Source of the DNA: Haematobacter genomosp. 1
GTDB taxonomy: Bacteria; Pseudomonadota; Alphaproteobacteria; Rhodobacterales; Rhodobacteraceae
Direction: 5' to 3'
DNA: 64,000 nt
Assembly (NCBI RefSeq): GCF_002196855.1
Contig: NZ_NIPW01000008.1
Location: forward strand, 62,001-126,000
Positions 31,518 to 42,042 of this stretch are shown piece by piece (positions within the stretch are counted from its first letter, which is position 1; each line of letters opens with the position of its first letter). The notes beneath the pieces were generated by a model. It had not been told where the DNA came from. It saw only the letters and a program-made list of their open reading frames with translations, and searched no databases. The translations under genes and the position numbers were made by a program.

Positions 31518-32975
31518 TCAGGTGGACTTTGTGTCGCCTGTCTGCATGGCCGCAAGGTCTGTCACCAACTGAAAGCGTACTCCGTCGGGCAGATATTCCA
31601 CCTGCGCCGTGCCATCGACAGAGGCCGACAGGGCGTATTCGATCATCGTCGAGCCGAAGCCCGTCCGCTCGGGTAGCATGACGGTCGGGCCGCCGGTCTC
31701 GATCCAGCGGAGTTCGAAGCGCTTGCCCTCTATGAACCACTCCACCCGGACCCGCCCTTCTTCGCCCGAGAGCGCGCCATACTTGACGGCATTCGTCGCC
31801 AGTTCGTGCAGCGCCATGGTCAGTGCACTGCTCGCCCGGTGGGAGATGTCCAGATCGGGGCCAAAGTAGTGAATCCGGCGCTCGCCGTTAAATGGCAGGA
31901 CGGCCTTCTCCACTGTTTGCCGCAGAGCGGCGATATCCCAGTCCTTGCCGGTGAGGACGTCATGCGCGCCGCTCAGCGCATTGATGCGACGCAGCAGAAC
32001 ATCCCGCATATCGGGGAGCGGCGCCTCGGCACGAAGCGATTGCCGGACGATGGATCGAACCGTCGACAGGATATTCTTGATCCTGTGCCCCATTTCCCGG
32101 TTCATCAGGTCACGATAGGCTTCGGCCGCCCTCCGCGCGGTGATGTCGATGGAGACCCCGCTCATCAACACGGGCCGATGGTCGTCGTCAAAGCGTGTTT
32201 CCGCCCGGATCTCGATCCAATGAACGGATCCATCCGGCCAGATTACGCGATATTCAACGTGGAGATCACCACCGGCGGCGAGCGCGGCTGCCACCGCTGA
32301 ATACCAGCGCTCTACATCATCGGGATGGATGGCGGTCTTCAGATCGGCATAGCTGAAGCTTTCTGCCGGGGCGCGACCGAAATTCGCCTTGCAGATCGCA
32401 GAAGCGACGAGTCTTTCGCTCGCCACGTCGAGTGTCCATGTCCCCAGCCCGCCCGCCTTCAGGGTGAAGTTCAGCCGCTCCTCGCTCGCCGTCAGATCGG
32501 CGATACGCTGCTGCATCCCGCGTTCCATTTCGTTGCGGTCGCTGGAGAAACCCGCCGTCCGCTCCCATGTCACGTCAAGCTGCGAGGCAAAGAAATAGGT
32601 CAGTTCCCCCTCGTCGAACACGGGGGAGACGAGCAGCCGGTTCCAGAAGATCGTGCCGTCCTTGCGGTAATTGAGCAGGTCGATCTCGAGCGGTTCACGG
32701 TCTCGGATGGCGTGACGAAGCCGTCCCACATCTTCCGCATTCGTGCCCGGTCCCTGAAGAAACCGGCAGTTGCGCCCCAGAACCTCCTCCCTCCCATAGC
32801 CGGTAAGCTTCAGAAAGGCGTCGTTCGCAAAGACGATGGGATTGTCCGGCTGCCGGGGGTCGGTGATGATCATCGGCATCCGCGTGGCGCGCATGGCAGC
32901 GGCAAACGGGTCGGACCCTGGCTTTCGGCGGTGTATCTCGCGGTCGATGCGGAGTTCTTCCAGAGGATTGCTCAT
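31518..32975 (-). CDS. LOV-PAS HWE-family blue-light sensor histidine kinase
   Basis: A 485-residue soluble kinase. The first domain is a LOV photosensor: GRNCRFLQG contains the flavin-reactive Cys70, and NPIVFANDAFLKLTGY precedes it. A second PAS domain spans about 165-285. The kinase core is of the HWE type: His297 in GHRIKNILSTVRSIVRQ, the ATP-binding Asn region ALHELATNAVKYGALS, and later VRVEWF and LRWIETGGP. Such kinases autophosphorylate on blue light through a cysteinyl-flavin adduct and often feed the general stress response. No response regulator is adjacent. The nearby photolyase and sigma-E region suggest a light-stress theme. Confidence 0.92.
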   Translation of the reverse strand: MSNPLEELRIDREIHRRKPGSDPFAAAMRATRMPMIITDPRQPDNPIVFANDAFLKLTGYGREEVLGRNCRFLQGPGTNAEDVGRLRHAIRDREPLEIDLLNYRKDGTIFWNRLLVSPVFDEGELTYFFASQLDVTWERTAGFSSDRNEMERGMQQRIADLTASEERLNFTLKAGGLGTWTLDVASERLVASAICKANFGRAPAESFSYADLKTAIHPDDVERWYSAVAAALAAGGDLHVEYRVIWPDGSVHWIEIRAETRFDDDHRPVLMSGVSIDITARRAAEAYRDLMNREMGHRIKNILSTVRSIVRQSLRAEAPLPDMRDVLLRRINALSGAHDVLTGKDWDIAALRQTVEKAVLPFNGERRIHYFGPDLDISHRASSALTMALHELATNAVKYGALSGEEGRVRVEWFIEGKRFELRWIETGGPTVMLPERTGFGSTMIEYALSASVDGTAQVEYLPDGVRFQLVTDLAAMQTGDTKST

Positions 32976-33106
32976 TATGCTCTACGCTCGCCGTCGCCCG
33001 CGGGATCGAAGGCCCGTGGGAAGTGGTGTTCCATCTATGTTCATGGCACATTGCCGCCGCCAAGTCCAACCGGCAGCGATGTGTCCGTCAACCACAATCT
33101 TGTGGA

Positions 33107-33406
33107 TCAAATACCTGCCAGAAGCATGTCGAGGGCATTCGTGATCTCGGTATCCCGAGCGATCAGCGAGGCAACGGGCCGGCCAAGCACGGTAAGCGGA
33201 ACTGCGGCCATGAACTGCGTCACCATCACATGCGGCATTTCCGCGATGTCAAAGAGCGGGTTCAGGCGTCGCGCGGGCAGGGGGGCGGCGTTCGGCGGGA
33301 GCAGGGGCACGACGACGCGGGTGTTCAGGCCGTCCAGCAGGTCTGCCTGCACATCCAGAAGATATCCCGCTCCGCCGGGGTTGGGATACACGTCGTAGCG
33401 CGCCAT
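33107..33406 (-). CDS. ccdB: CcdB-type toxin
   Basis: A 99-residue protein matching CcdB in length and pattern: MARYDVYPNPGGAGYLLDVQ at the start, VVVPLLPPNAAP, LNPLFDI, and a C-terminal MLLAGI with the Gly-Ile end known from F-plasmid CcdB (normally WGI; here Ala replaces Trp). CcdB poisons DNA gyrase. The gene starts inside the antitoxin stop codon (TGATG), the usual coupled arrangement. Confidence 0.85.
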   Translation of the reverse strand: MARYDVYPNPGGAGYLLDVQADLLDGLNTRVVVPLLPPNAAPLPARRLNPLFDIAEMPHVMVTQFMAAVPLTVLGRPVASLIARDTEITNALDMLLAGI

Positions 33407-33639
33407 CAGAACTGCCGGAAACCGTCCAGCGGCAGTCCGTTTTCCACCACCCAGTCGTTGGAGCTTTCGATGGCCCGGCGATTTTCCGCCCGCCACGCCT
33501 CTGCCCGTGCCCGAGAGACGGCGGATCGCAGTCCCGCCTCTGCTGCCTGGGACAGGTTGACGCCGAACGACCGCGCCTCTGCCAGCAGGGCCGTGTCGAT
33601 CGTCAGGTTGGTGGCTTTGCGGGCTGCGGAAATGGGCAT
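33406..33639 (-). CDS. ccdA: CcdA-type antitoxin
   Basis: A 77-residue antitoxin (81 if the ATG at 33651 is used). It has an N-terminal ribbon-helix-helix segment (ATNLTIDTALLAEARSFGVNLSQ) and a charged C-terminal toxin-binding tail (AEAWRAENRRAIESSNDWVVENG) very like F-plasmid CcdA. It neutralises CcdB and, with it, represses the operon. I favour 33639 because GAGG lies 6 nt before it. Repeats at 33636-33675 overlap the start region and are probable operators. Confidence 0.85.
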   Translation of the reverse strand: MPISAARKATNLTIDTALLAEARSFGVNLSQAAEAGLRSAVSRARAEAWRAENRRAIESSNDWVVENGLPLDGFRQF

Positions 33640-33698: not shown

Positions 33699-34751
33699 CT
33701 ATAACCCGCCCGCTCCTGTAACGAGCGCGCGCATTACTTCGGCGGCGTCCCCTTTCATGCCCCGTCCCGCTCCGGTTCCGGCCCATTGCGCGCCATAACC
33801 GGTCTCACCCCTCGCTTTGGCAGCGGCGTTGAGCGCTTTGCCCAGATCGTAGGCACGGGGATAGGCGGGCACGTCCGTTTCGGGAAAAGCTTGACCCCAG
33901 CCGGTAAACCGGTTGGTGAGACAGCGCGCGGGTCTGCCCGATATCACGCGGGTCATCTCCGTCTTTCCTCCTTTCGCAAGACGCTCACGATAGGCCTGAT
34001 CGGCAGCGGATTCCGTGCATCCGACAAAGGCCGTGCCAAGTTGCGCCGCAGCGGCGCCCATGTCGAGCATCCGGCGAATGTCTTGCCCATCCATCAGCCC
34101 GCCCGCAGCGATCACCGGAAGGCCTGCTTCCTGCACCAGAAGACGTGTCAGATCATCGGTGGACAGGCGCTCATCAGGGCCATCGGGCTCGAATATCCCC
34201 CGATGCCCGCCGGCCTCCCAGCCTTGGGCGATCACCGCATGAAAGCCCGCATCGGCGATCATCCGCGCTTCGGAGAGCGAGGTGGCGCTGGCGATCAAGA
34301 CAAGGCCCGCATTTCGCAACGCCGTGATCTGATGCGCACGGGGCAGGCCGAAGTGGAAGCTGACGACCGCCGGGCGCATTTCCAGAACGACGCGCAGGAG
34401 ATCATCCGTCTCGCGGAAGCTGATGTAGATCTCCTCCAGCGTGGATGGGGGAGCGGCGCCGAAGTCGGCAAAAAGCGGCGAAGCGCTATGGATCCACGCG
34501 GTCTCCACCGCTTCATTCCGGGGGGCAGGAGGGTGGCAGAAGAAATTGACGTTGATCGGTTTCTTCGTCAGGGCCTGCGTATCGGTGATGGCCTGACGGG
34601 CGGCGGTGGCGGAGGATGCTCCCAGCCCGAGCGCTCCGAGACCTCCCGCCTCCGATACCGCCGCGGCAAGCGCCGGGGTGGAGACGCCTGCCATCGGTGC
34701 CTGAAAGATCGGCAAGACGATGGTCATCTGGTTGAGTATGGATTGTGTCAT
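33699..34751 (-). CDS. nitronate monooxygenase family protein
   Basis: A 350-residue FMN-dependent TIM-barrel enzyme of the NMO (2-nitropropane dioxygenase) family. The segments PIFQAPMAGVSTPALAAAVSEAGGLG, INVNFFCH, AQGWEAGGHRG (FMN phosphate region) and PVIAAGGLMDGQDIRRML, then GAAAAQLGTAF, are diagnostic. It oxidises alkyl nitronates such as propionate-3-nitronate. ATG 34751 is preceded by GCGGAGGA. It lies 59 nt downstream of the photolyase gene on the same strand and may be the last gene of that operon. Confidence 0.9.
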   Translation of the reverse strand: MTQSILNQMTIVLPIFQAPMAGVSTPALAAAVSEAGGLGALGLGASSATAARQAITDTQALTKKPINVNFFCHPPAPRNEAVETAWIHSASPLFADFGAAPPSTLEEIYISFRETDDLLRVVLEMRPAVVSFHFGLPRAHQITALRNAGLVLIASATSLSEARMIADAGFHAVIAQGWEAGGHRGIFEPDGPDERLSTDDLTRLLVQEAGLPVIAAGGLMDGQDIRRMLDMGAAAAQLGTAFVGCTESAADQAYRERLAKGGKTEMTRVISGRPARCLTNRFTGWGQAFPETDVPAYPRAYDLGKALNAAAKARGETGYGAQWAGTGAGRGMKGDAAEVMRALVTGAGGL

Positions 34752-34810
34752 CGGGGTCCTCCGCGGCGGGAGGATGCCTCGGCGCCGGAGCGCCCGCAAT
34801 ATCCGACGTC

Positions 34811-36223
34811 TCAGGAGAGGCACCGGAATGCCTGATAGCTTTCCAGCGCGTGTTTCCGCCCCTCTGACACCGCATCATCCTCCCGCGGCCGCCAGAGCGG
34901 CGGTACAGTCCAGCCGGGGGGCAGAGTGTCATAATAGGCTTCCGCCTCAGCCGCCGGTTGCCTCCGTCCCGGTAGCCAGCGGGCGCGGTAGGCTCCCTTG
35001 GGATCGAAGCGTTCGGCCTGAGTTTCGGGATTGAAAATACGGAAGAAGGGCGACGCATCCGGCCCACAGCCAGCAACCCACTGCCAGTTCATCGCATTGG
35101 ACGCGGGATCCCAGTCGGTCAGGCTTTCCTCGAAATGTCGCAACCCCAGTCGCCAGTCGGTGAGCATATGCTTGGTCAGCCAGCTCGCCACGACCATGCG
35201 GACCCGGTTGTGCATCCGGCCTGTCACGCGCATTTCGCGGAGGCCCGCATCCACCAATGCGATGCCGGTCTCCGCCCGCTCCCATCGGCGCAGTTCCGGC
35301 CCCTCGCCCTGCCACGGAAATCCACGCAATTCCGGTCTCCACGGAATTTGCGCCATATCTGGAAAGGCGATGAGCAGATGCCATGCGAAGTCGCGCCAGA
35401 TCACCTCCGTCAGAAACTTCTCCACCTCGCCAGAGATCGCGGGATTCGACTGCGCTCGAAGCTCAGCGGCAGCCCAGACGGTGCGCGGGCTGATCTCGCC
35501 AAGGGCCAGATGTTCGGAAAGCTCCGATGTCGCGGCTCTGTCGGGCCTGTCACGGCCTTCCGCATAACCGGAAAGGTGGTCAAGGAAGCCGTCCAGCCTT
35601 TCGCGCGCCCGATCCTCTCCGGCGGGCAAGGCGAAGCGATCCAGCACCGCTCGCCCGCGATGGAGGTCGGGCGCGAGATCGAGCCTTGCGATGTCAATCC
35701 CCCTGACCGGTGGGTCAGCCGCGCCGAACCGCTGCGGAGCCTCCGGTTGTGGCACATCCGGTCCGAAACGGCGAAGGGCGCGGGCAAAGGGCGCGAAAAC
35801 GCGGTAGCTCCCGCCCCCTGCCGTGCGAATGGCCGCGGGCTGTGCGAGCAGGTGTCCCGGATGAAGAACAAGTTCCACCTGCGGCGGAAGCGCTGCGCGG
35901 AGCCGGTCTTGCGTGGCGCGCGTCGCCGCGGTTGGGAAATCGCCCTGATGCACTCTGCGCGCTCCGGTCTGCTGGACAATGTCGGGCAGCAGGCGATCCG
36001 GCTCTCCCTCAAGGATCAGCACGCCCCGCCCGGACCGGTGTCGCAAGGCGCTGTCATAGCACCGCAAGGCCCGTTCCAGACGCCAGCGGCTGGCAGCCCC
36101 CTGCTTGCACAACGTGCGGTCTATGAAGAACACGACAAGAAGCGGCCCCTCCCCGATCGCCGCGAGGAGCGCGGAATTGTCCGTAAAGCGGAAGTCGCGG
36201 GTAAGCCACAAAAGGCCCGTCAC
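34811..36223 (-). CDS. phr: deoxyribodipyrimidine photolyase
   Basis: A 470-residue cryptochrome/photolyase-family protein. It opens with LLWLTRDFRFTDNSAL (antenna domain). The FAD domain carries EVIWRDFAWHLL, RMHNRVRMVVASWLTKHML, DWDPASNAMNWQWVAGCGPDAS and PFFRIFNPETQAERFDP, all hallmark class I photolyase elements. It repairs UV-induced pyrimidine dimers using light. GTG 36223 overlaps the cfa-like stop (GTGA), so it is the fourth gene of the FAD-DUF1365-methylase-photolyase operon. In Rhodobacter a photolyase gene (phrA) is a known RpoE target. Confidence 0.93.
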   Translation of the reverse strand: MTGLLWLTRDFRFTDNSALLAAIGEGPLLVVFFIDRTLCKQGAASRWRLERALRCYDSALRHRSGRGVLILEGEPDRLLPDIVQQTGARRVHQGDFPTAATRATQDRLRAALPPQVELVLHPGHLLAQPAAIRTAGGGSYRVFAPFARALRRFGPDVPQPEAPQRFGAADPPVRGIDIARLDLAPDLHRGRAVLDRFALPAGEDRARERLDGFLDHLSGYAEGRDRPDRAATSELSEHLALGEISPRTVWAAAELRAQSNPAISGEVEKFLTEVIWRDFAWHLLIAFPDMAQIPWRPELRGFPWQGEGPELRRWERAETGIALVDAGLREMRVTGRMHNRVRMVVASWLTKHMLTDWRLGLRHFEESLTDWDPASNAMNWQWVAGCGPDASPFFRIFNPETQAERFDPKGAYRARWLPGRRQPAAEAEAYYDTLPPGWTVPPLWRPREDDAVSEGRKHALESYQAFRCLS

Positions 36224-37389
36224 GCCGGTCCCTCGGCATGGGTGAGCTCGACTTGAACCACGTCCGTGCGGCCCGTGACGAAGGTCGCGGCGCAGCCTTC
36301 CAGATAGAACTGCCAACTTCGCAGAAAGGCGTCGTCGTACCCGAAGCGGAGGATGCGGGGCCGCTCAGCCATCATGCGCCCGGCCCAGAGGCGGCAGGTC
36401 CGAGCATAATCCTGTCCGAATGCAAAGCTGTCCGAAAGCGTCAACCCCGCCCGGGCAGCCTGCGCCGCAATCGCGGCCCGACAGGGCAGCATGCCGCCCG
36501 GAAAGGCGTGCTGCCGGATGAAATCGGACCGCTTACGATAGGCCGGGAAGCTCGCGTCAGGCACGGTGATGGCCTGTAAGATGGCGCGCCCGTCGTCGGC
36601 CAGACGTGCCTTCAGGGTGGCGAAATAGGTCGGCCAGTAGCGCTCGCCCACCGCCTCGATCATCTCCACCGAGACGATGTTGTCGAAGCGGCCAGCGGTG
36701 TGCCGGTAATCCTGCAATCTGATTTCGGCGCGCCCGTCCAGCCTCGCGTCGGCATAGGCGCTCTGGCTGGGAGATATGGTGATCGCCTTCACCCGCCGCC
36801 CACGCATTGCAGCGGCCTCGGCGAAACTTCCCCAGCCGCAGCCGATCTCCAGCACCGTCTCGCCAGCCGTCAGACGTGACAGAATACGGTCGTTCTTGCG
36901 GGTCTGCGCTCGCTCCAGATCATCGTCGCCCGGCGCAAAGAGCGCGCTGGAATAGCTCATGCCACGGTCGAGCCAGAGCTGGTAGAATTCATTGCCCACA
37001 TCGTAATGCGCGCGGATATTGCGCGCCGAACCGCCGAGACTGTTCATGCGGGAAACACGGTCGGAAAACCGCATGGCCCAGCCGGGCAGCCGACCGGCCT
37101 TTGCCCAGGGCGCAAGGTGATCCATATTCTTCAGGGCCAGCGCAAGGACGTTTTCAAGCGACGCAGTTTCCCATTGCCGGTCTATCCAGCTTTCGCCCAG
37201 ACCAACGTCGCCCCGTCTTGCGAGCCGCGGAAGAAAGCTCCAGTCCCGTACCTCCAGATCGGCCTCCGGCCCGGCGCTGCCGAAGCGAAGCACCGCTCCC
37301 TCCGGCGTGGTAAGGGTCAGACGACCGTGCGAAATGCCTTCGAGAGAGGAGAGGAACCGATTTTTCAGCAGGCCTGTCGCGAAGGTCAT
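36220..37389 (-). CDS. cyclopropane-fatty-acid-synthase-like phospholipid methylase
   Basis: A 389-residue SAM-dependent lipid methyltransferase. Conserved parts are NIRAHYDVGNEFYQLWLD, MSYSSALF, the SAM site VLEIGCGWGSFAE, SVEMIEAVG and FIRQHAFPGGMLP. CFA synthases methylate unsaturated acyl chains of membrane phospholipids. In Rhodobacter a relative in the RpoE regulon (UfaM) instead starts furan-fatty-acid synthesis, and the same neighbour set here makes that role likely. It overlaps DUF1365 upstream (ATGA) and photolyase downstream (GTGA). Confidence 0.9.
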   Translation of the reverse strand: MTFATGLLKNRFLSSLEGISHGRLTLTTPEGAVLRFGSAGPEADLEVRDWSFLPRLARRGDVGLGESWIDRQWETASLENVLALALKNMDHLAPWAKAGRLPGWAMRFSDRVSRMNSLGGSARNIRAHYDVGNEFYQLWLDRGMSYSSALFAPGDDDLERAQTRKNDRILSRLTAGETVLEIGCGWGSFAEAAAMRGRRVKAITISPSQSAYADARLDGRAEIRLQDYRHTAGRFDNIVSVEMIEAVGERYWPTYFATLKARLADDGRAILQAITVPDASFPAYRKRSDFIRQHAFPGGMLPCRAAIAAQAARAGLTLSDSFAFGQDYARTCRLWAGRMMAERPRILRFGYDDAFLRSWQFYLEGCAATFVTGRTDVVQVELTHAEGPA

Positions 37390-38165
37390 CGGCTGATCTC
37401 CTTCTCCGGCGCAGAGGGAGGGGGGCGGTAGCGGGCGCCCTTCCGCTTCAGGCGCAGCGCATGCCAGTAGATCAGTGCTAGAACCCGCAAGCCACCGCCC
37501 GGCCTGTGGAGCGCAGCCCACATGACCGCCCGGTTGGTGAGCGGTGAAAGCGGGCCCGCCATAGCAGCCTCCAGCCCTTCGGCGCCGTCGATCTGCCGGA
37601 TGCGGATCGCCAGCCTGTCCGGCAGCCCCCCGAAGCGGAAGCGGTATTCGCCGGCAACATCCTGAAAGGGAGACACGTGAAATGCCTTGGCCGCGCGGAT
37701 CTCATCGTCGGGAGAAATGCTCGCGCCGAGGGGCAGGCAAAGATAGCTGTGACGCTGGCCGAAGGTATTGTTCACCTCGGCGATCGCAGCCAGCAGGTCA
37801 TTTCCCCGCAAAAGAAGCCAGAAGCTCACGGGCGTGAACCAGTGGCCGAGAAATCTCGGCTGGGTAAGCAGCGCAAGCACCATGCCCGGCCTGCGGTCGA
37901 TACCCGCCGCTGCCAGTTGTTCCCATGCCCATGGGGCGCCCCGGCCCGCACCGCGTGGCCCCCCGTGATCGCGGTCGTGGAATGCCATCAGGTTGAAACC
38001 GTTGTGCGACAGGAGGCGCGGCCCCGCCATCGTTTCGGGCGCCATCAGAACGTAGTCCACCCGATAGGCGAAGGCATGGCGCGTGACACCACGGCGGGCA
38101 TGGGTCACCCCTGCGCGCAGATGCAGCACCTCGCCCGAGAGCAGCCTGTCGGCCAGTGGCTCCAT
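37386..38165 (-). CDS. DUF1365 family protein
   Basis: A 259-residue protein. DUF1365 features include LHLRAGVTHARRGVTRHAFAYRVDYVLM at the start, FLGHWFTPVSFWLLL, AEVNNTFGQRHSYLC, KAFHVSPFQDVAGEYRF and a C-terminal AALIYWHALRLKRKG. Its biochemical activity is not firmly established. It nearly always sits between a FAD-dependent amine-oxidase-like gene and a CFA-like methylase, as here, implying a step in acyl-chain modification. It starts on TGATG shared with the FAD gene. Confidence 0.88.
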   Translation of the reverse strand: MEPLADRLLSGEVLHLRAGVTHARRGVTRHAFAYRVDYVLMAPETMAGPRLLSHNGFNLMAFHDRDHGGPRGAGRGAPWAWEQLAAAGIDRRPGMVLALLTQPRFLGHWFTPVSFWLLLRGNDLLAAIAEVNNTFGQRHSYLCLPLGASISPDDEIRAAKAFHVSPFQDVAGEYRFRFGGLPDRLAIRIRQIDGAEGLEAAMAGPLSPLTNRAVMWAALHRPGGGLRVLALIYWHALRLKRKGARYRPPPSAPEKEISR

Positions 38166-39448
38166 CAAACCTCCTCCGGCAGCAGCTGACGGGCGACCCT
38201 CAGGGCGCTGGCGAAGCCGTCTTCATGGAAGCCGTTGCGCAGCCACGCCCCCGCGAACCAGCTTCGCCGCTTGCCCTGAAGCCCTGCGATCACCCCCTGC
38301 GCCGCAAGGGCTGCGCGATCGAACAGCGGGTGGTGAAAGACCGCCTCGTCATAAATGACACTGTCGGGCAGTTGCACCTGCGGGTTGAGCGTCACGAACA
38401 GGGGATCGCTTTCGGGAATGTTCTGGAGCCGGTTCATCCAATAGCTCACGCTGACGTTCTGTTGGGGGGTAACGCCAGCCTCCGTCCGATGGGTCCATGA
38501 ACTCCAGCATCTGCGGCGATGCGGCATCACCCGTGGATCGCGATGCAACACCATCCTGTTCGGCTGGAAGCGGATGGACGAAAACGCTGCGATCTCCGCC
38601 GGATCCGCGTCGGCTAGAAGGGCCATGGTCTGGTCCGCGTGGCATGCGAAAATCACGTGATCGTAGGTTTCGGAAAGCGCACCCTCGCCCCTCACCGTCA
38701 CGGCATCCTGCCCCCGTGTGACCGAGCGAACAGGTGTCCCGGGCCGCATTTCAACGCCATGGCTCCGCAGGCTTTCGATCAGTCGCGAGAGATACGCTGT
38801 GCTGCCCCCTGAGACGGTCCACCACTGATGCTGTCCGCGCGGGGCCATCAGCGCGTGATTGCGCAGAAACCGCAGCAGCGCTTCTGCTGGGAACGCATCG
38901 ATTCCAGCCGGTGGAGTGGACCAGATGGCACCGCAGAGCGGATAGAGGTAATGCTCCCGGAAGCGCCGCCCGAGCCGAAGACGCACCAGCAACTCGCCTA
39001 TCGTCATATCGGCTGTGACGGGAAGGTCTGCCGCCTGCCGGTTGAAACGGAGAATGTCCCGGAGCATGCCGTGGAACCCCGGATCAACCAGGTTGGACCG
39101 CTGTCCAAAAATCGCGTTGCCGGAGCGGAGTGCATATTCCAGCCGCCCGCCCTGCAACGATGCGCCGAAGCTCATGTCGCTCTTCTCGACCGGCACGTTC
39201 AGATCACGAAACATGGCGGTCAGGTGCGGATAGGTCGCATAGTTGAAGACGATGAATCCGGTATCAACCGCTCTGTCGCCCCGTGCACCCGCCAGCACCG
39301 TCCGCGCATGACCGCCGAAACGCCTCTCCGCCTCGTAAAGCGTCACGCGGTGATGCCGGCAGAGTGCCCAGCCACAGGCAAGGCCCGCAATCCCGCCGCC
39401 TATGATCGCGATGTTCGCCGGGGCGCCGCGGGTTAGGTCAAAAGGCAT
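38165..39448 (-). CDS. FAD-dependent amine-oxidase-like oxidoreductase (first gene of photolyase operon)
   Basis: A 427-residue flavoprotein with the FAD motif IAIIGGGIAGLACGWAL near the N terminus, VTLYEAERRFGGHARTV, VDTGFIVFNYATYPHL, and a C-terminal GAWLRNGFHEDGFASALRVA. It belongs to the NAD(P)-binding/phytoene-desaturase-like group always found with DUF1365 and CFA-like methylases. In the furan-fatty-acid scheme a desaturase or oxidase is needed after the methylase, and this gene is a candidate; that is inference. ATG 39448 has GAGGAG upstream, and a TGATCC-N18-TAGAAC promoter lies close by. Confidence 0.87.
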   Translation of the reverse strand: MPFDLTRGAPANIAIIGGGIAGLACGWALCRHHRVTLYEAERRFGGHARTVLAGARGDRAVDTGFIVFNYATYPHLTAMFRDLNVPVEKSDMSFGASLQGGRLEYALRSGNAIFGQRSNLVDPGFHGMLRDILRFNRQAADLPVTADMTIGELLVRLRLGRRFREHYLYPLCGAIWSTPPAGIDAFPAEALLRFLRNHALMAPRGQHQWWTVSGGSTAYLSRLIESLRSHGVEMRPGTPVRSVTRGQDAVTVRGEGALSETYDHVIFACHADQTMALLADADPAEIAAFSSIRFQPNRMVLHRDPRVMPHRRRCWSSWTHRTEAGVTPQQNVSVSYWMNRLQNIPESDPLFVTLNPQVQLPDSVIYDEAVFHHPLFDRAALAAQGVIAGLQGKRRSWFAGAWLRNGFHEDGFASALRVARQLLPEEV

Positions 39449-39470: not shown

Positions 39471-39500
39471 GTTCTACGTGATGCGGGCGGGATCGGATCA
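39471..39500 (-). promoter_or_regulatory. sigma-E (RpoE/ECF11)-type promoter for the photolyase operon
   Basis: On the minus strand, TGATCC (39500-39495) is followed after exactly 18 nt by TAGAAC (39476-39471). The downstream gene starts at 39448. The element matches the TGATC-type -35 of RpoE-ChrR regulons and the layout of two other sites here. Confidence 0.65.
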
Positions 39501-39527
39501 CCCCCTCCAAAGGAAATTTGCGGCGTA

Positions 39528-39557
39528 TGATCCGAATGCTTGTCCTGCGCGTATCCA
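39528..39557 (+). promoter_or_regulatory. sigma-E (RpoE/ECF11)-type promoter for rpoE-chrR
   Basis: TGATCC (39528-39533) is followed after 18 nt by TATCCA (39552-39557), about 100 bp before the rpoE start. This fits autoregulation of the sigma factor. It is divergent from the 39471-39500 promoter, with the -35 boxes 27 bp apart. Confidence 0.6.
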
Positions 39558-39655
39558 GCGGCATGACAATCGAAATTCCCATACCGATCCTCCGAGACAC
39601 GAAAGGCTTGCAAGGCGCGGCTTTGTCGGGCCAGATCGTATGGAGAAGGAGGGGC

Positions 39656-40219
39656 GTGCATTTGGCAGGCGGACAATCCCCCGATCGGTCGGCGGAGATG
39701 ACGCGGCTGCTGCTTGCCGTGCGCGACCGGCAGGACCGGCAGGCGTTCGGCGAATTGTTCGATCACTTTGCTCCACGGCTGAAGGCCATGCTGATCCGCA
39801 GCGGCCTGACCGACGGCAGCGCGGAAGACGTCGTGCAGGATGTCCTCCTCACCGTCTGGCACAAGGCCGCCCAGTTCGACCCGGGCCGGGCGGAGGCGGC
39901 GGGCTGGATATACCGTATCGCCCGCAACCGTCAGATCGACGTGCTCCGTCGCAGGCGCATCCCCATGCCGGATGAGCTGGGTCCCCCCGCCGACGACGCG
40001 GCACAGAGCGTGGCGCTTGCACAGGAGGCGCGGTTGCTCCGGGCCGCCCTCTCGCGGCTTTCTGCCGAGCAGCAGGAGGCGCTGGCGCAGGCCTACATGG
40101 ATGATCTGCCGCAGAGCGAGATCAGCCATCGGACGGGCCTGCCGCTCGGGACGGTGAAATCGCGCATCAGGCTCGGACTGGAGCGGCTGCGGCATGAACT
40201 ACGGGACCTGAAGCCATGA
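39656..40219 (+). CDS. rpoE: RpoE-type ECF sigma factor (ECF11)
   Basis: A 187-residue ECF sigma factor. Region 2 is AFGELFDHFAPRLKAMLIRSG and EDVVQDVLLTVWHKAAQFDPGRAEAAGWIYRIARNRQIDVLRRRR. Region 4 is SAEQQEALAQAYMDDLPQSEISHRTGLPLGTVKSRIRLGLERLR. I chose GTG 39656, next to AAGGAGG, because it gives the N-terminal length of the Rhodobacter homologue; an earlier ATG at 39563 remains open. It is coupled to chrR by an ATGA overlap. In Rhodobacter this factor drives the singlet-oxygen response. Confidence 0.9.
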   Translation: MHLAGGQSPDRSAEMTRLLLAVRDRQDRQAFGELFDHFAPRLKAMLIRSGLTDGSAEDVVQDVLLTVWHKAAQFDPGRAEAAGWIYRIARNRQIDVLRRRRIPMPDELGPPADDAAQSVALAQEARLLRAALSRLSAEQQEALAQAYMDDLPQSEISHRTGLPLGTVKSRIRLGLERLRHELRDLKP

Positions 40220-40848
40220 CGCGGCAGATCACGCATCACATTCCGCTCGACCTGCTGCGTGACTGGGCGGCGGGGCGGCTCGCCGCCGCCTTCGCCACGG
40301 TCATCGCGGCCCATGTCGCGCTTTGTGATGACTGTCGCGCGGCATGGGAGGCCGAGGATCTGCTTGCCGGGGAGTTGCTGGACAGGCTGCCGCCCGTGCC
40401 GGTTAGCCTCGCCGCTCGCGAAAGGGTGTTTGCGGCGCTGGATCATGCCGTGCCTGTGCTGCCTCGGGAGGCGAAAGGGGTGCTGCCCGCGCCAGTGGTG
40501 GAGCTTACGGTGGCCGCTCCGCGGTGGCAGTCTCTCGGCGGCGGCATCCGGCAGCAAATCCTCCTGCCGGGGCCGGACGCATCGCTTCGGCTTCTGCATA
40601 TTCCATCCGGGCGCAAGGTGCCGGAACATGGTCACGGCGGGCTGGAACTGACATTGGTACTGGAGGGCAGCTTCTCCGACAGCGAAGGGCGGTTCGGCCG
40701 GGGCGATGTGGAGTGCGCCGGCAACGACACAAACCATCAGCCGGTCGCAGGGGACGATGGGTCTTGTCTCTGCCTCGCGGCGACCGATGCGCCGCTGCGG
40801 TTCCGCGGATGGGTTCCCCGCCTTCTGCAACCGCTGTTCGGGATCTGA
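40216..40848 (+). CDS. chrR: ChrR-type zinc anti-sigma factor
   Basis: A 210-residue anti-sigma factor. The N-terminal zinc anti-sigma domain has H7-X25-H33-X3-C37-X2-C40. The C-terminal cupin domain keeps metal ligands as EHGHGGLE (two His and a Glu) and a later His in TNHQP. In Rhodobacter ChrR releases RpoE upon singlet oxygen, and the cupin domain is needed for that response. All ligands appear intact, so a working sensor is expected. It overlaps rpoE and is 3 nt from the SDR gene. Confidence 0.92.
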   Translation: MTRQITHHIPLDLLRDWAAGRLAAAFATVIAAHVALCDDCRAAWEAEDLLAGELLDRLPPVPVSLAARERVFAALDHAVPVLPREAKGVLPAPVVELTVAAPRWQSLGGGIRQQILLPGPDASLRLLHIPSGRKVPEHGHGGLELTLVLEGSFSDSEGRFGRGDVECAGNDTNHQPVAGDDGSCLCLAATDAPLRFRGWVPRLLQPLFGI

Positions 40849-40851
40849 GCG

Positions 40852-41580
40852 ATGACTTTCAGGGGCAAGCGCATCTGGGTGATCGGGGCAAGTGCCGGTA
40901 TCGGGGCGGCGCTCGCCCGTGCGTTTGCGGCGGAGGGCGCGCGCCTTGTGCTTTCCGCCCGCGACGGTCCGGCCCTGAGCACGCTGGCCGAAGAAATTGG
41001 GGGGGCGCAAGTCCTCCCCCTCGACCTCGCCGCGCGGGAAATGCTGCCCGCCGCGATTGCCGCGCAGCGGGAGCTGTTCGACGCGATCATCTGCACGGCC
41101 GCCCTCTACGATCCCGCAAAAGTCGCGGCGCTGGACCCGGCACGGACGGAGATGCTTGTCCGGGTGAACCTGCTCGGAACGCTCGATGTTGCGAGGCTGA
41201 CCCCGCCGCTCCTGCGAGACGGCGGGCAGCTGGTGCTCTTCGGCTCGGTTGCGGGTTATTTCGGTCTTCCCGGCGGGCAGGCCTATTCGGCGACCAAGGC
41301 GGCGATCAACAATCTGGCGGAGAGTCTGCGGGCAGAGCTTGCGCCCCGCGTGGATGTGCGTCTGGTTTGTCCGGGTTTTGTCCGGTCCCGTCTGACAGCG
41401 AAGAACGATTTCCACATGCCTGCTCTCATGGAGCCGGAGGAAGCGGCGCGAAGGGTGCTGCGCGGGCTCCGCGGCAGGGCTTTCGAGATTCACTTTCCCA
41501 GACGGTTCACCCTCGCGGTGAAGTTGCTTCGGGTGCTGCCCTATCCGATTGCCTTCCGCCTCACGCGCCGGATCGGGTGA
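40852..41580 (+). CDS. short-chain dehydrogenase/reductase in the rpoE operon
   Basis: A 242-residue classical SDR: nucleotide motif GASAGIG (12-18), catalytic Ser132 and Tyr145-x3-Lys149 in SATK context. The substrate is unknown. It follows chrR by 3 nt, so it is probably co-expressed under the sigma-E-type promoter. SDR genes accompany the DUF1365/CFA-like set in several alphaproteobacteria, suggesting a role in lipid or aldehyde detoxification during singlet-oxygen stress. It converges on DUF2177 with a 2-nt gap. Confidence 0.85.
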   Translation: MTFRGKRIWVIGASAGIGAALARAFAAEGARLVLSARDGPALSTLAEEIGGAQVLPLDLAAREMLPAAIAAQRELFDAIICTAALYDPAKVAALDPARTEMLVRVNLLGTLDVARLTPPLLRDGGQLVLFGSVAGYFGLPGGQAYSATKAAINNLAESLRAELAPRVDVRLVCPGFVRSRLTAKNDFHMPALMEPEEAARRVLRGLRGRAFEIHFPRRFTLAVKLLRVLPYPIAFRLTRRIG

Positions 41581-41582
41581 GA

Positions 41583-41984
41583 TCAGGCAAGCCGCTGGCT
41601 TATGATCGCGACACCCGCCCAGGCGGAGAAGCCGGTCAGGAACGTGCCCCACAGGCCGTCGATCAGCACCTGTCGAACGGACCAATCCGCCAACGTTGCA
41701 TAATTGGTCATCTCATAGGTGCCGTAGCAGAGGAACCCCAGGATCATCCCGCCCCAAAGCGCCTGCAGCGGCGCCTCCTGCCGCAGCGCCGTCAGCGAAA
41801 CGAACCACAGAAGCCCGGCCACATAGGCCATGTAGAACAGCGCCGCCGGGACCAGCCTGAGCGGTTGGGCAAGAAGATGCCCCACATGCTGCTCGAACAC
41901 CGGCCGGATGAGGAACCGGATGCCGAGGCTGTCCAGCCCGAGAAAGACGATGACGGTAATGACATAGAGGATGAGGGTTTGCAT
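41583..41984 (-). CDS. DUF2177 family membrane protein
   Basis: A 133-residue protein with four hydrophobic helices (about 3-22, 42-62, 72-92, 108-130). It matches DUF2177 with FLGLDSLGIRFLIRPVFEQHVGHLL and GFLCYGTYEMTNYATLADWS. Function is unknown. The family is often linked with the photolyase/CFA-like stress cluster. It has its own TGATCC-N18-TATGGC promoter about 29 bp upstream, so it likely joins the same regulon although transcribed toward the SDR. Confidence 0.83.
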   Translation of the reverse strand: MQTLILYVITVIVFLGLDSLGIRFLIRPVFEQHVGHLLAQPLRLVPAALFYMAYVAGLLWFVSLTALRQEAPLQALWGGMILGFLCYGTYEMTNYATLADWSVRQVLIDGLWGTFLTGFSAWAGVAIISQRLA

Positions 41985-42012
41985 CGCACCGGCTCCCGAA
42001 GGTTCAGCACAA

Positions 42013-42042
42013 GCCATACGGCGCGCGGCCTGCGGCGGATCA
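42013..42042 (-). promoter_or_regulatory. sigma-E-type promoter for the DUF2177 gene
   Basis: On the minus strand, TGATCC (42042-42037) is followed after exactly 18 nt by TATGGC (42018-42013). The DUF2177 start is 29 nt further on. The spacing equals that of the two promoters between rpoE and the photolyase operon. Confidence 0.55.

Follow-up and report, generated by a model that had tools for sequence, protein, structure and literature searches.

Do three TGATCC motifs in a gene cluster of Haematobacter genomosp. 1 mark the promoters of one singlet-oxygen regulon, and does that regulon include a gene of the DUF2177 family? The question is raised by a 64,000-nucleotide (nt) stretch of contig NZ_NIPW01000008.1, here called the window, in which an initial annotation had placed such motifs before an operon that begins with a flavin adenine dinucleotide (FAD) oxidoreductase gene, before rpoE-chrR and a short-chain dehydrogenase (SDR) gene, and before the DUF2177 gene. 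Our analysis leads us to read the cluster, with a probability of roughly 0.86, as an RpoE-ChrR singlet-oxygen response of extracytoplasmic function (ECF) sigma factor group ECF11, driven from three TGATCC-N16-CGTA promoters and including DUF2177.

The three TGATCC sites are present as described, each followed after 18 nt by TAGAAC, TATCCA or TATGGC. However, the -10 element had been read as beginning at TA, and in all three sites this TA is preceded by CG, the proper -10 element being CGTA. The promoter of the ufaD-ufaO-ufaM-like-photolyase operon thus occupies 39475..39500 on the minus strand (-35 TGATCC at 39500-39495, N16, -10 CGTA at 39478-39475), the autoregulatory promoter of rpoE-chrR-SDR occupies 39528..39553 on the plus strand (TGATCC at 39528-39533, N16, CGTA at 39550-39553), and that of the DUF2177 gene occupies 42017..42042 on the minus strand (TGATCC at 42042-42037, N16, CGTA at 42020-42017). 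Strand and distance are promoter-like, as had been proposed: the distance between the first T of the -35 box and the gene start is 52 nt for the FAD gene, 170 nt for rpoE (taking the ATG at 39698) and 58 nt for DUF2177 (start at 41984), and the -35 boxes of the divergent rpoE and ufa promoters are 27 bp apart.

Whether such an arrangement could be accidental depends on how the motif is written. About 30 chance occurrences of TGATCC had been assumed for 64 kb, an estimate that was too low, as the window contains 75 against an expectation of 52. The argument that three equally spaced sites are unlikely to be accidental was weak for TGATCC-N18-TA, which occurs three times against 0.74 expected and reached at least three occurrences in 3 of 100 shuffles, but it held for TGATCC-N16-CGTA (three occurrences where 0.10 were expected, and none of 100 shuffles matching this). 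When spacings of 8 to 30 were compared in the window, TGATCC and CGTA were paired three times at N16, once at N28 and at no other spacing. The genome scan for TGATCC-N18-TA that had been recommended gave 57 sites, against 83 for N17-TA, and hence no enrichment; with the shuffles, these counts led us to drop TGATCC-N18-TA as too weak a motif. The three sites are genuine, and the exact promoter is TGATCC-N16-CGTA.

This is also the published RpoE-ChrR promoter, and its spacing is kept in relatives, in agreement with the earlier proposal of an RpoE-type promoter. In Pseudomonas syringae the consensus is TGATCC, 16 nt, CGTA, as obtained by chromatin immunoprecipitation sequencing and quantitative reverse-transcription PCR (PMC5507510), and in Shewanella start sites were mapped behind TGATCC with CGTATT or CGTAAT (PMC4336711). 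We compared 41 chrR loci, comprising 11 named records and the best 30 of the 163 genomes of the family with a match, this one included. TGATCY and CGTA were paired 63 times at N16, while 22 other spacings together gave 21 pairs, with at most three at each. A strict site precedes rpoE in 28 of the 30 other loci with a recognised rpoE, and of the 21 other loci in which a divergent FAD gene was identified, 17 have one before it. Seventeen loci show a divergent promoter pair, the -35 boxes being 4 to 136 bp apart. Loci L002-L011 also have a strict site near chrR, yet stand outside the count of 28 of 30; several of them are near-identical, and their RpoE was not recognised by tblastn.

The DUF2177 gene (41583..41984, minus strand; PF09945, E 1.1e-36) encodes a predicted membrane protein and would form its own transcription unit, convergent with the SDR gene. 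The family PF09945, which we take to be COG4852, is not among the eight published core genes of the regulon. With one genome per genus, DUF2177 is present in 83 of 198 genomes of the family, this one included. PF09945 gave no match in any of the 11 genomes behind the records L001-L011. The upstream scan covered 83 DUF2177 genes of the 82 other genomes (82 of the genes with at least 100 nt upstream, locus L105 with only 19 nt), a partial match with a stop (G004 C1048) being excluded. NGATCY-N16-CGTA was found before 13 of these 83 genes, in every case 57-95 nt before the domain, while 22 other spacings together gave five sites (Poisson P 6e-19 for the N16 sites, a value that disregards the relatedness of the genomes). 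A weight matrix with a threshold of 10 gave 17 of the 83 genes at N16 and at most three at each of 14 other spacings; its training set of 49 strict sites from the chrR loci L013-L041 contained G130's DUF2177 site, so that the result for this one row, and no other, is affected by leakage.

The same association was seen outside the family. In a class-wide draw DUF2177 occurs in 31 of 289 genomes, and 29 loci were scanned, 28 of them from other families (the locus of the window was omitted, as were two G453 partial matches to which no locus was assigned). An N16 site lies 60-82 nt before DUF2177 in 7 of the 28 loci, which represent five families and include two pairs that share a genus; one more site, at 498 nt, was not counted as a promoter, and other spacings gave two. 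A recurrent promoter at a fixed distance before DUF2177 was thus found in independent genomes. In the family, all 13 site-bearing genomes have a ChrR match. Because 12 of the 13 site-bearing DUF2177 genes have no listed chrR within 15 kb on their contig (many of these genomes being drafts), the data suggest that the association of DUF2177 with RpoE sites arose repeatedly. A listed chrR is at most 15 kb away from 13 of the 83 DUF2177 genes. In four of these 13 cases (L067, L085, L086 and L104) DUF2177 directly follows the SDR gene on the same strand, and could there share the control of that gene without a promoter of its own. At six loci of other families (L146, L148, L150, L156, L165 and L170), relatives of the FAD gene, of the CFA-type gene or of RpoE and ChrR share the 3.4-kb locus of DUF2177, which again links it with the RpoE response.

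Several observations weigh against this reading, most of them at DUF2177. Two loci, L029 and L024, lack the strict site before rpoE, the latter with no more than 45 nt of contig upstream, and 4 of 21 lack it before the divergent FAD gene. Five other loci (L013-L017) have the gene order chrR-SDR-DUF2177, and a strict DUF2177 site was found only in L014; across the family, 70 of the 83 other DUF2177 genes, among them the one with 19 nt upstream, have no N16 site. The site was found in none of 9 genomes without ChrR and in 13 of 73 with ChrR, a difference that is not significant (P 0.34). Co-occurrence of DUF2177 and ChrR is weak (74 of 163 against 9 of 35 genomes, P 0.04). It could accordingly be argued that only the rpoE and ufa promoters are genuine, the site before DUF2177 having arisen by chance and this gene being transcribed otherwise, as the site is missing from four of the five loci with the same gene order and from most of the family. 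We consider this unlikely, since only 0.10 such sites were expected in the window, distance and strand fit, and the same kind of site is seen again in 13 genomes from different genera, there at 57-95 nt, as well as in 7 of the 28 genomes from outside the family.

That all three sites are coincidental has next to no probability: TGATCC-N18-TA alone did reach three occurrences in 3 of 100 shuffles, but TGATCC-N16-CGTA did so in none, and two of the three sites are conserved in relatives. A different ECF sigma factor might instead use these promoters, as the analysis covered RpoE alone among those that the genome encodes; this is very unlikely, however, given that the sites flank rpoE-chrR itself and fit the consensus of the RpoE-ChrR sigma group.

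The genes around these promoters were identified at family level with Pfam and NCBIfam profiles, and by matches to solved structures for RpoE and ChrR, and the identities first assigned to them were borne out at that level. The sigma factor gene (39656..40219, plus strand) encodes regions 2 and 4, with 2q1z_A (RpoE) as best PDB match (E 3.2e-44). It probably starts at the GTG at 39656 behind AAGGAGG, 14 codons upstream of the ATG at 39698, because the form beginning at this ATG shows a 12-residue offset relative to the first residue of the RpoE chain. The gene for the anti-sigma factor ChrR follows (40216..40848, plus strand); the protein has an HxxxCxxC N-terminal part and a cupin domain and matches TIGR02451 (182.3 bits, cut-off 124.5), PF12973 and 2z2s_B (E 2.6e-50). 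All eight zinc-ligand positions given in PMC6852236 are identical in its alignment to 2z2s. The third gene after rpoE-chrR (40852..41580, plus strand) encodes a short-chain dehydrogenase by Pfam, RSP1087-type by family only.

On the minus strand lie the genes for an FAD oxidoreductase that is UfaD-type by family and position (38165..39448), a UfaO-type DUF1365 protein (37386..38168; PF07103, E 1.2e-59), a CMAS-family S-adenosylmethionine-dependent methylase that is UfaM-type by family (36220..37389; PF02353, E 3.8e-71), a DNA photolyase (34811..36223; PF03441 and PF00875) and, after it, a nitronate monooxygenase at the possible end of the operon (33699..34754; PF03060, E 1.3e-66). UfaO contains DUF1365, and ufaD, ufaO and ufaM are furan-fatty-acid genes (PMC7380195); by family, the methylase, FAD desaturase and DUF1365 oxygenase types found together here would form a UfaM-UfaD-UfaO set. 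Judged in the same way, seven of the eight published core regulon genes (PMC5507510) are predicted in the cluster, the eighth, RSP1088, being termed 'lipoprotein' in the table of that paper; the core regulon itself stems from Dufour et al. 2008, as cited in PMC6852236 and PMC5507510. The features of an ECF11 system are accordingly found together here, namely a sigma factor with regions 2 and 4, a cognate ChrR with zinc-binding anti-sigma and cupin domains, an autoregulatory TGATCC-N16-CGTA promoter and, by family, most of the core genes. RSP1088 is presumably a lipocalin; no match to Lipocalin_2 was found in the genome, nor any to Photo_RC.

What was observed directly is where the sites lie, how far they are conserved and which gene families are present; from this we infer an operon structure, dependence on RpoE, induction by singlet oxygen and a role for DUF2177. 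In this model RpoE would be kept inactive by ChrR, and singlet oxygen would lead to the loss of ChrR, as is known in Rhodobacter sphaeroides. Free RpoE would then take RNA polymerase to the three TGATCC-N16-CGTA promoters. The first of these would transcribe rpoE-chrR-SDR and so form a feedback loop, the divergent second would transcribe the ufaD, ufaO and ufaM-like genes with the photolyase gene, and the third would transcribe DUF2177, a small membrane protein that may act with modified membrane lipids.

The promoter type and the RpoE-ChrR system are already known. With the R. sphaeroides ECF11 system the cluster has in common the sigma/anti-sigma pair, the promoter type and, by family, the ufaD/ufaO/ufaM/photolyase/SDR set. 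In R. sphaeroides, however, the core genes are distributed over three loci (PMC5507510), whereas they are gathered in one here, with the ufaM-like and photolyase genes behind ufaD-ufaO and the SDR gene behind chrR. The present genome further differs from R. sphaeroides in having no Lipocalin_2 or Photo_RC match and in the added DUF2177 unit. The P. syringae PSPTO_1043 (PMC5507510) and Shewanella RpoE2 (PMC4336711) regulons have the same TGATCC-N16-CGTA consensus and include further targets, such as catalase, diguanylate cyclase and glutathione peroxidase; in a comparison by promoter sites alone, no strict non-coding site was found here beyond the cluster.

How far the regulon extends in this genome was evaluated by scanning its 4.2 million bases. 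TGATCY-N16-CGTA occurs at 14 places, of which 11 are outside the cluster, and all 11 lie within coding frames by a home-made codon score (lowest for the frame at L051, with a score of 46). This score placed the cluster sites at 39475 and 39528 inside a frame too, a 654-codon frame that extends the FAD gene upstream; we overruled that call and took both sites as intergenic because the FAD gene starts at 39448 and the sites are conserved. Strict TGATCC-N16-CGTA sites number 12, whereas 14 other spacings gave 4.9 on average. We dropped this excess as a sign of a larger regulon, the other nine being in coding frames by the same score. The 'compact regulon' of the initial annotation therefore stands for perfect sites, those outside coding frames by codon score being confined to the cluster.

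RpoE could also use weaker sites elsewhere, so that the regulon is wider than the cluster and compact for perfect sites only; we give this about even odds, and it is compatible with an RpoE-ChrR response centred on the three promoters. RpoE-bound sites in P. syringae include imperfect -35 boxes (PMC5507510), and the relaxed motif NGATCY-N16-CGTA, found at 55 places in the genome, has two further occurrences outside coding frames, both preceding plausible genes. Two such sites are, however, about what chance would give, if roughly one-tenth of the 41 relaxed-only sites are non-coding, and no site was found within 500 nt upstream of the family match in either of two rpoH-like genes. TIGR02392 gave three matches in the genome, one rpoH-like gene above the cut-off (L139), one below it (L140) and a third in a 695-codon frame that is probably the primary sigma factor. 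No RpoE site was found in the 500 nt before any of the three, where weaker sites may still lie, and the best matrix score before the two rpoH-like genes was 0.9, while the sites of the cluster score 16.0 to 22.5. In R. sphaeroides, by contrast, rpoHII is an RpoE target (PMC10673084).

One of the two relaxed non-coding sites is a CGATCC-N16-CGTA about 65 nt upstream of an HhH-GPD DNA glycosylase gene (locus L192, G000 C21 at about 193608; gene at 792-1436 of the locus, minus strand), which is a possible, weak fourth RpoE target. The other, also CGATCC-N16-CGTA, is at 32983-33007 of the window (minus strand) and ends 7 nt before the ATG of a PAS-type HWE histidine kinase gene (31518-32975, minus strand) that appears LOV-like by eye.

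DUF2177 as a recurrent RpoE target is the part that goes beyond the known system, and the case for its membership in a light-stress response may be new. In the parts of the literature available that name DUF2177, COG4852 or PF09945, we saw no tie of this family to RpoE, and the extended regulon of Dufour et al. 2008 might list it. Singlet-oxygen-induced, SAK1-dependent genes of Chlamydomonas include a DUF2177 gene, a DUF1365 gene and the cyclopropane fatty acid synthase genes CFA1 and CFA2 (PMC4067076, Table 5), the DUF2177 gene model being flagged there as missing from the later v5 annotation; this likeness concerns shared gene families only, in a eukaryote with a different regulator. DUF2177 is also among the frequent neighbours of heliorhodopsin genes (PMC11109279). 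A single-sequence structure model of the protein was poor (mean predicted local distance difference test score, pLDDT, 61.1).

We propose for DUF2177 a membrane role beside the furan-fatty-acid enzymes. More tentatively, and at somewhat less than even odds, DUF2177 could be an overlooked and ancient part of the response that joins singlet oxygen with furan and cyclopropane fatty acids, a membrane protein that handles or senses modified or peroxidised lipids, was recruited repeatedly to the RpoE regulon across Alphaproteobacteria (either with a promoter of its own or through association with ufa or SDR genes), and serves the same purpose in a green alga. With this cluster a domain of unknown function acquires a testable role, as a membrane partner of the furan-fatty-acid response, alongside gene families that are listed as singlet-oxygen-induced in an alga (PMC4067076). 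It also brings nearly the whole published RpoE-ChrR core set into one stretch of a bacterium in which no photosynthetic reaction-centre gene was detected.

Between the histidine kinase and nitronate monooxygenase genes lies a CcdB toxin-family gene (33107-33415 of the window, minus strand; PF01845, E 2.2e-29), with a possible antitoxin frame, identified by eye, just upstream of it.

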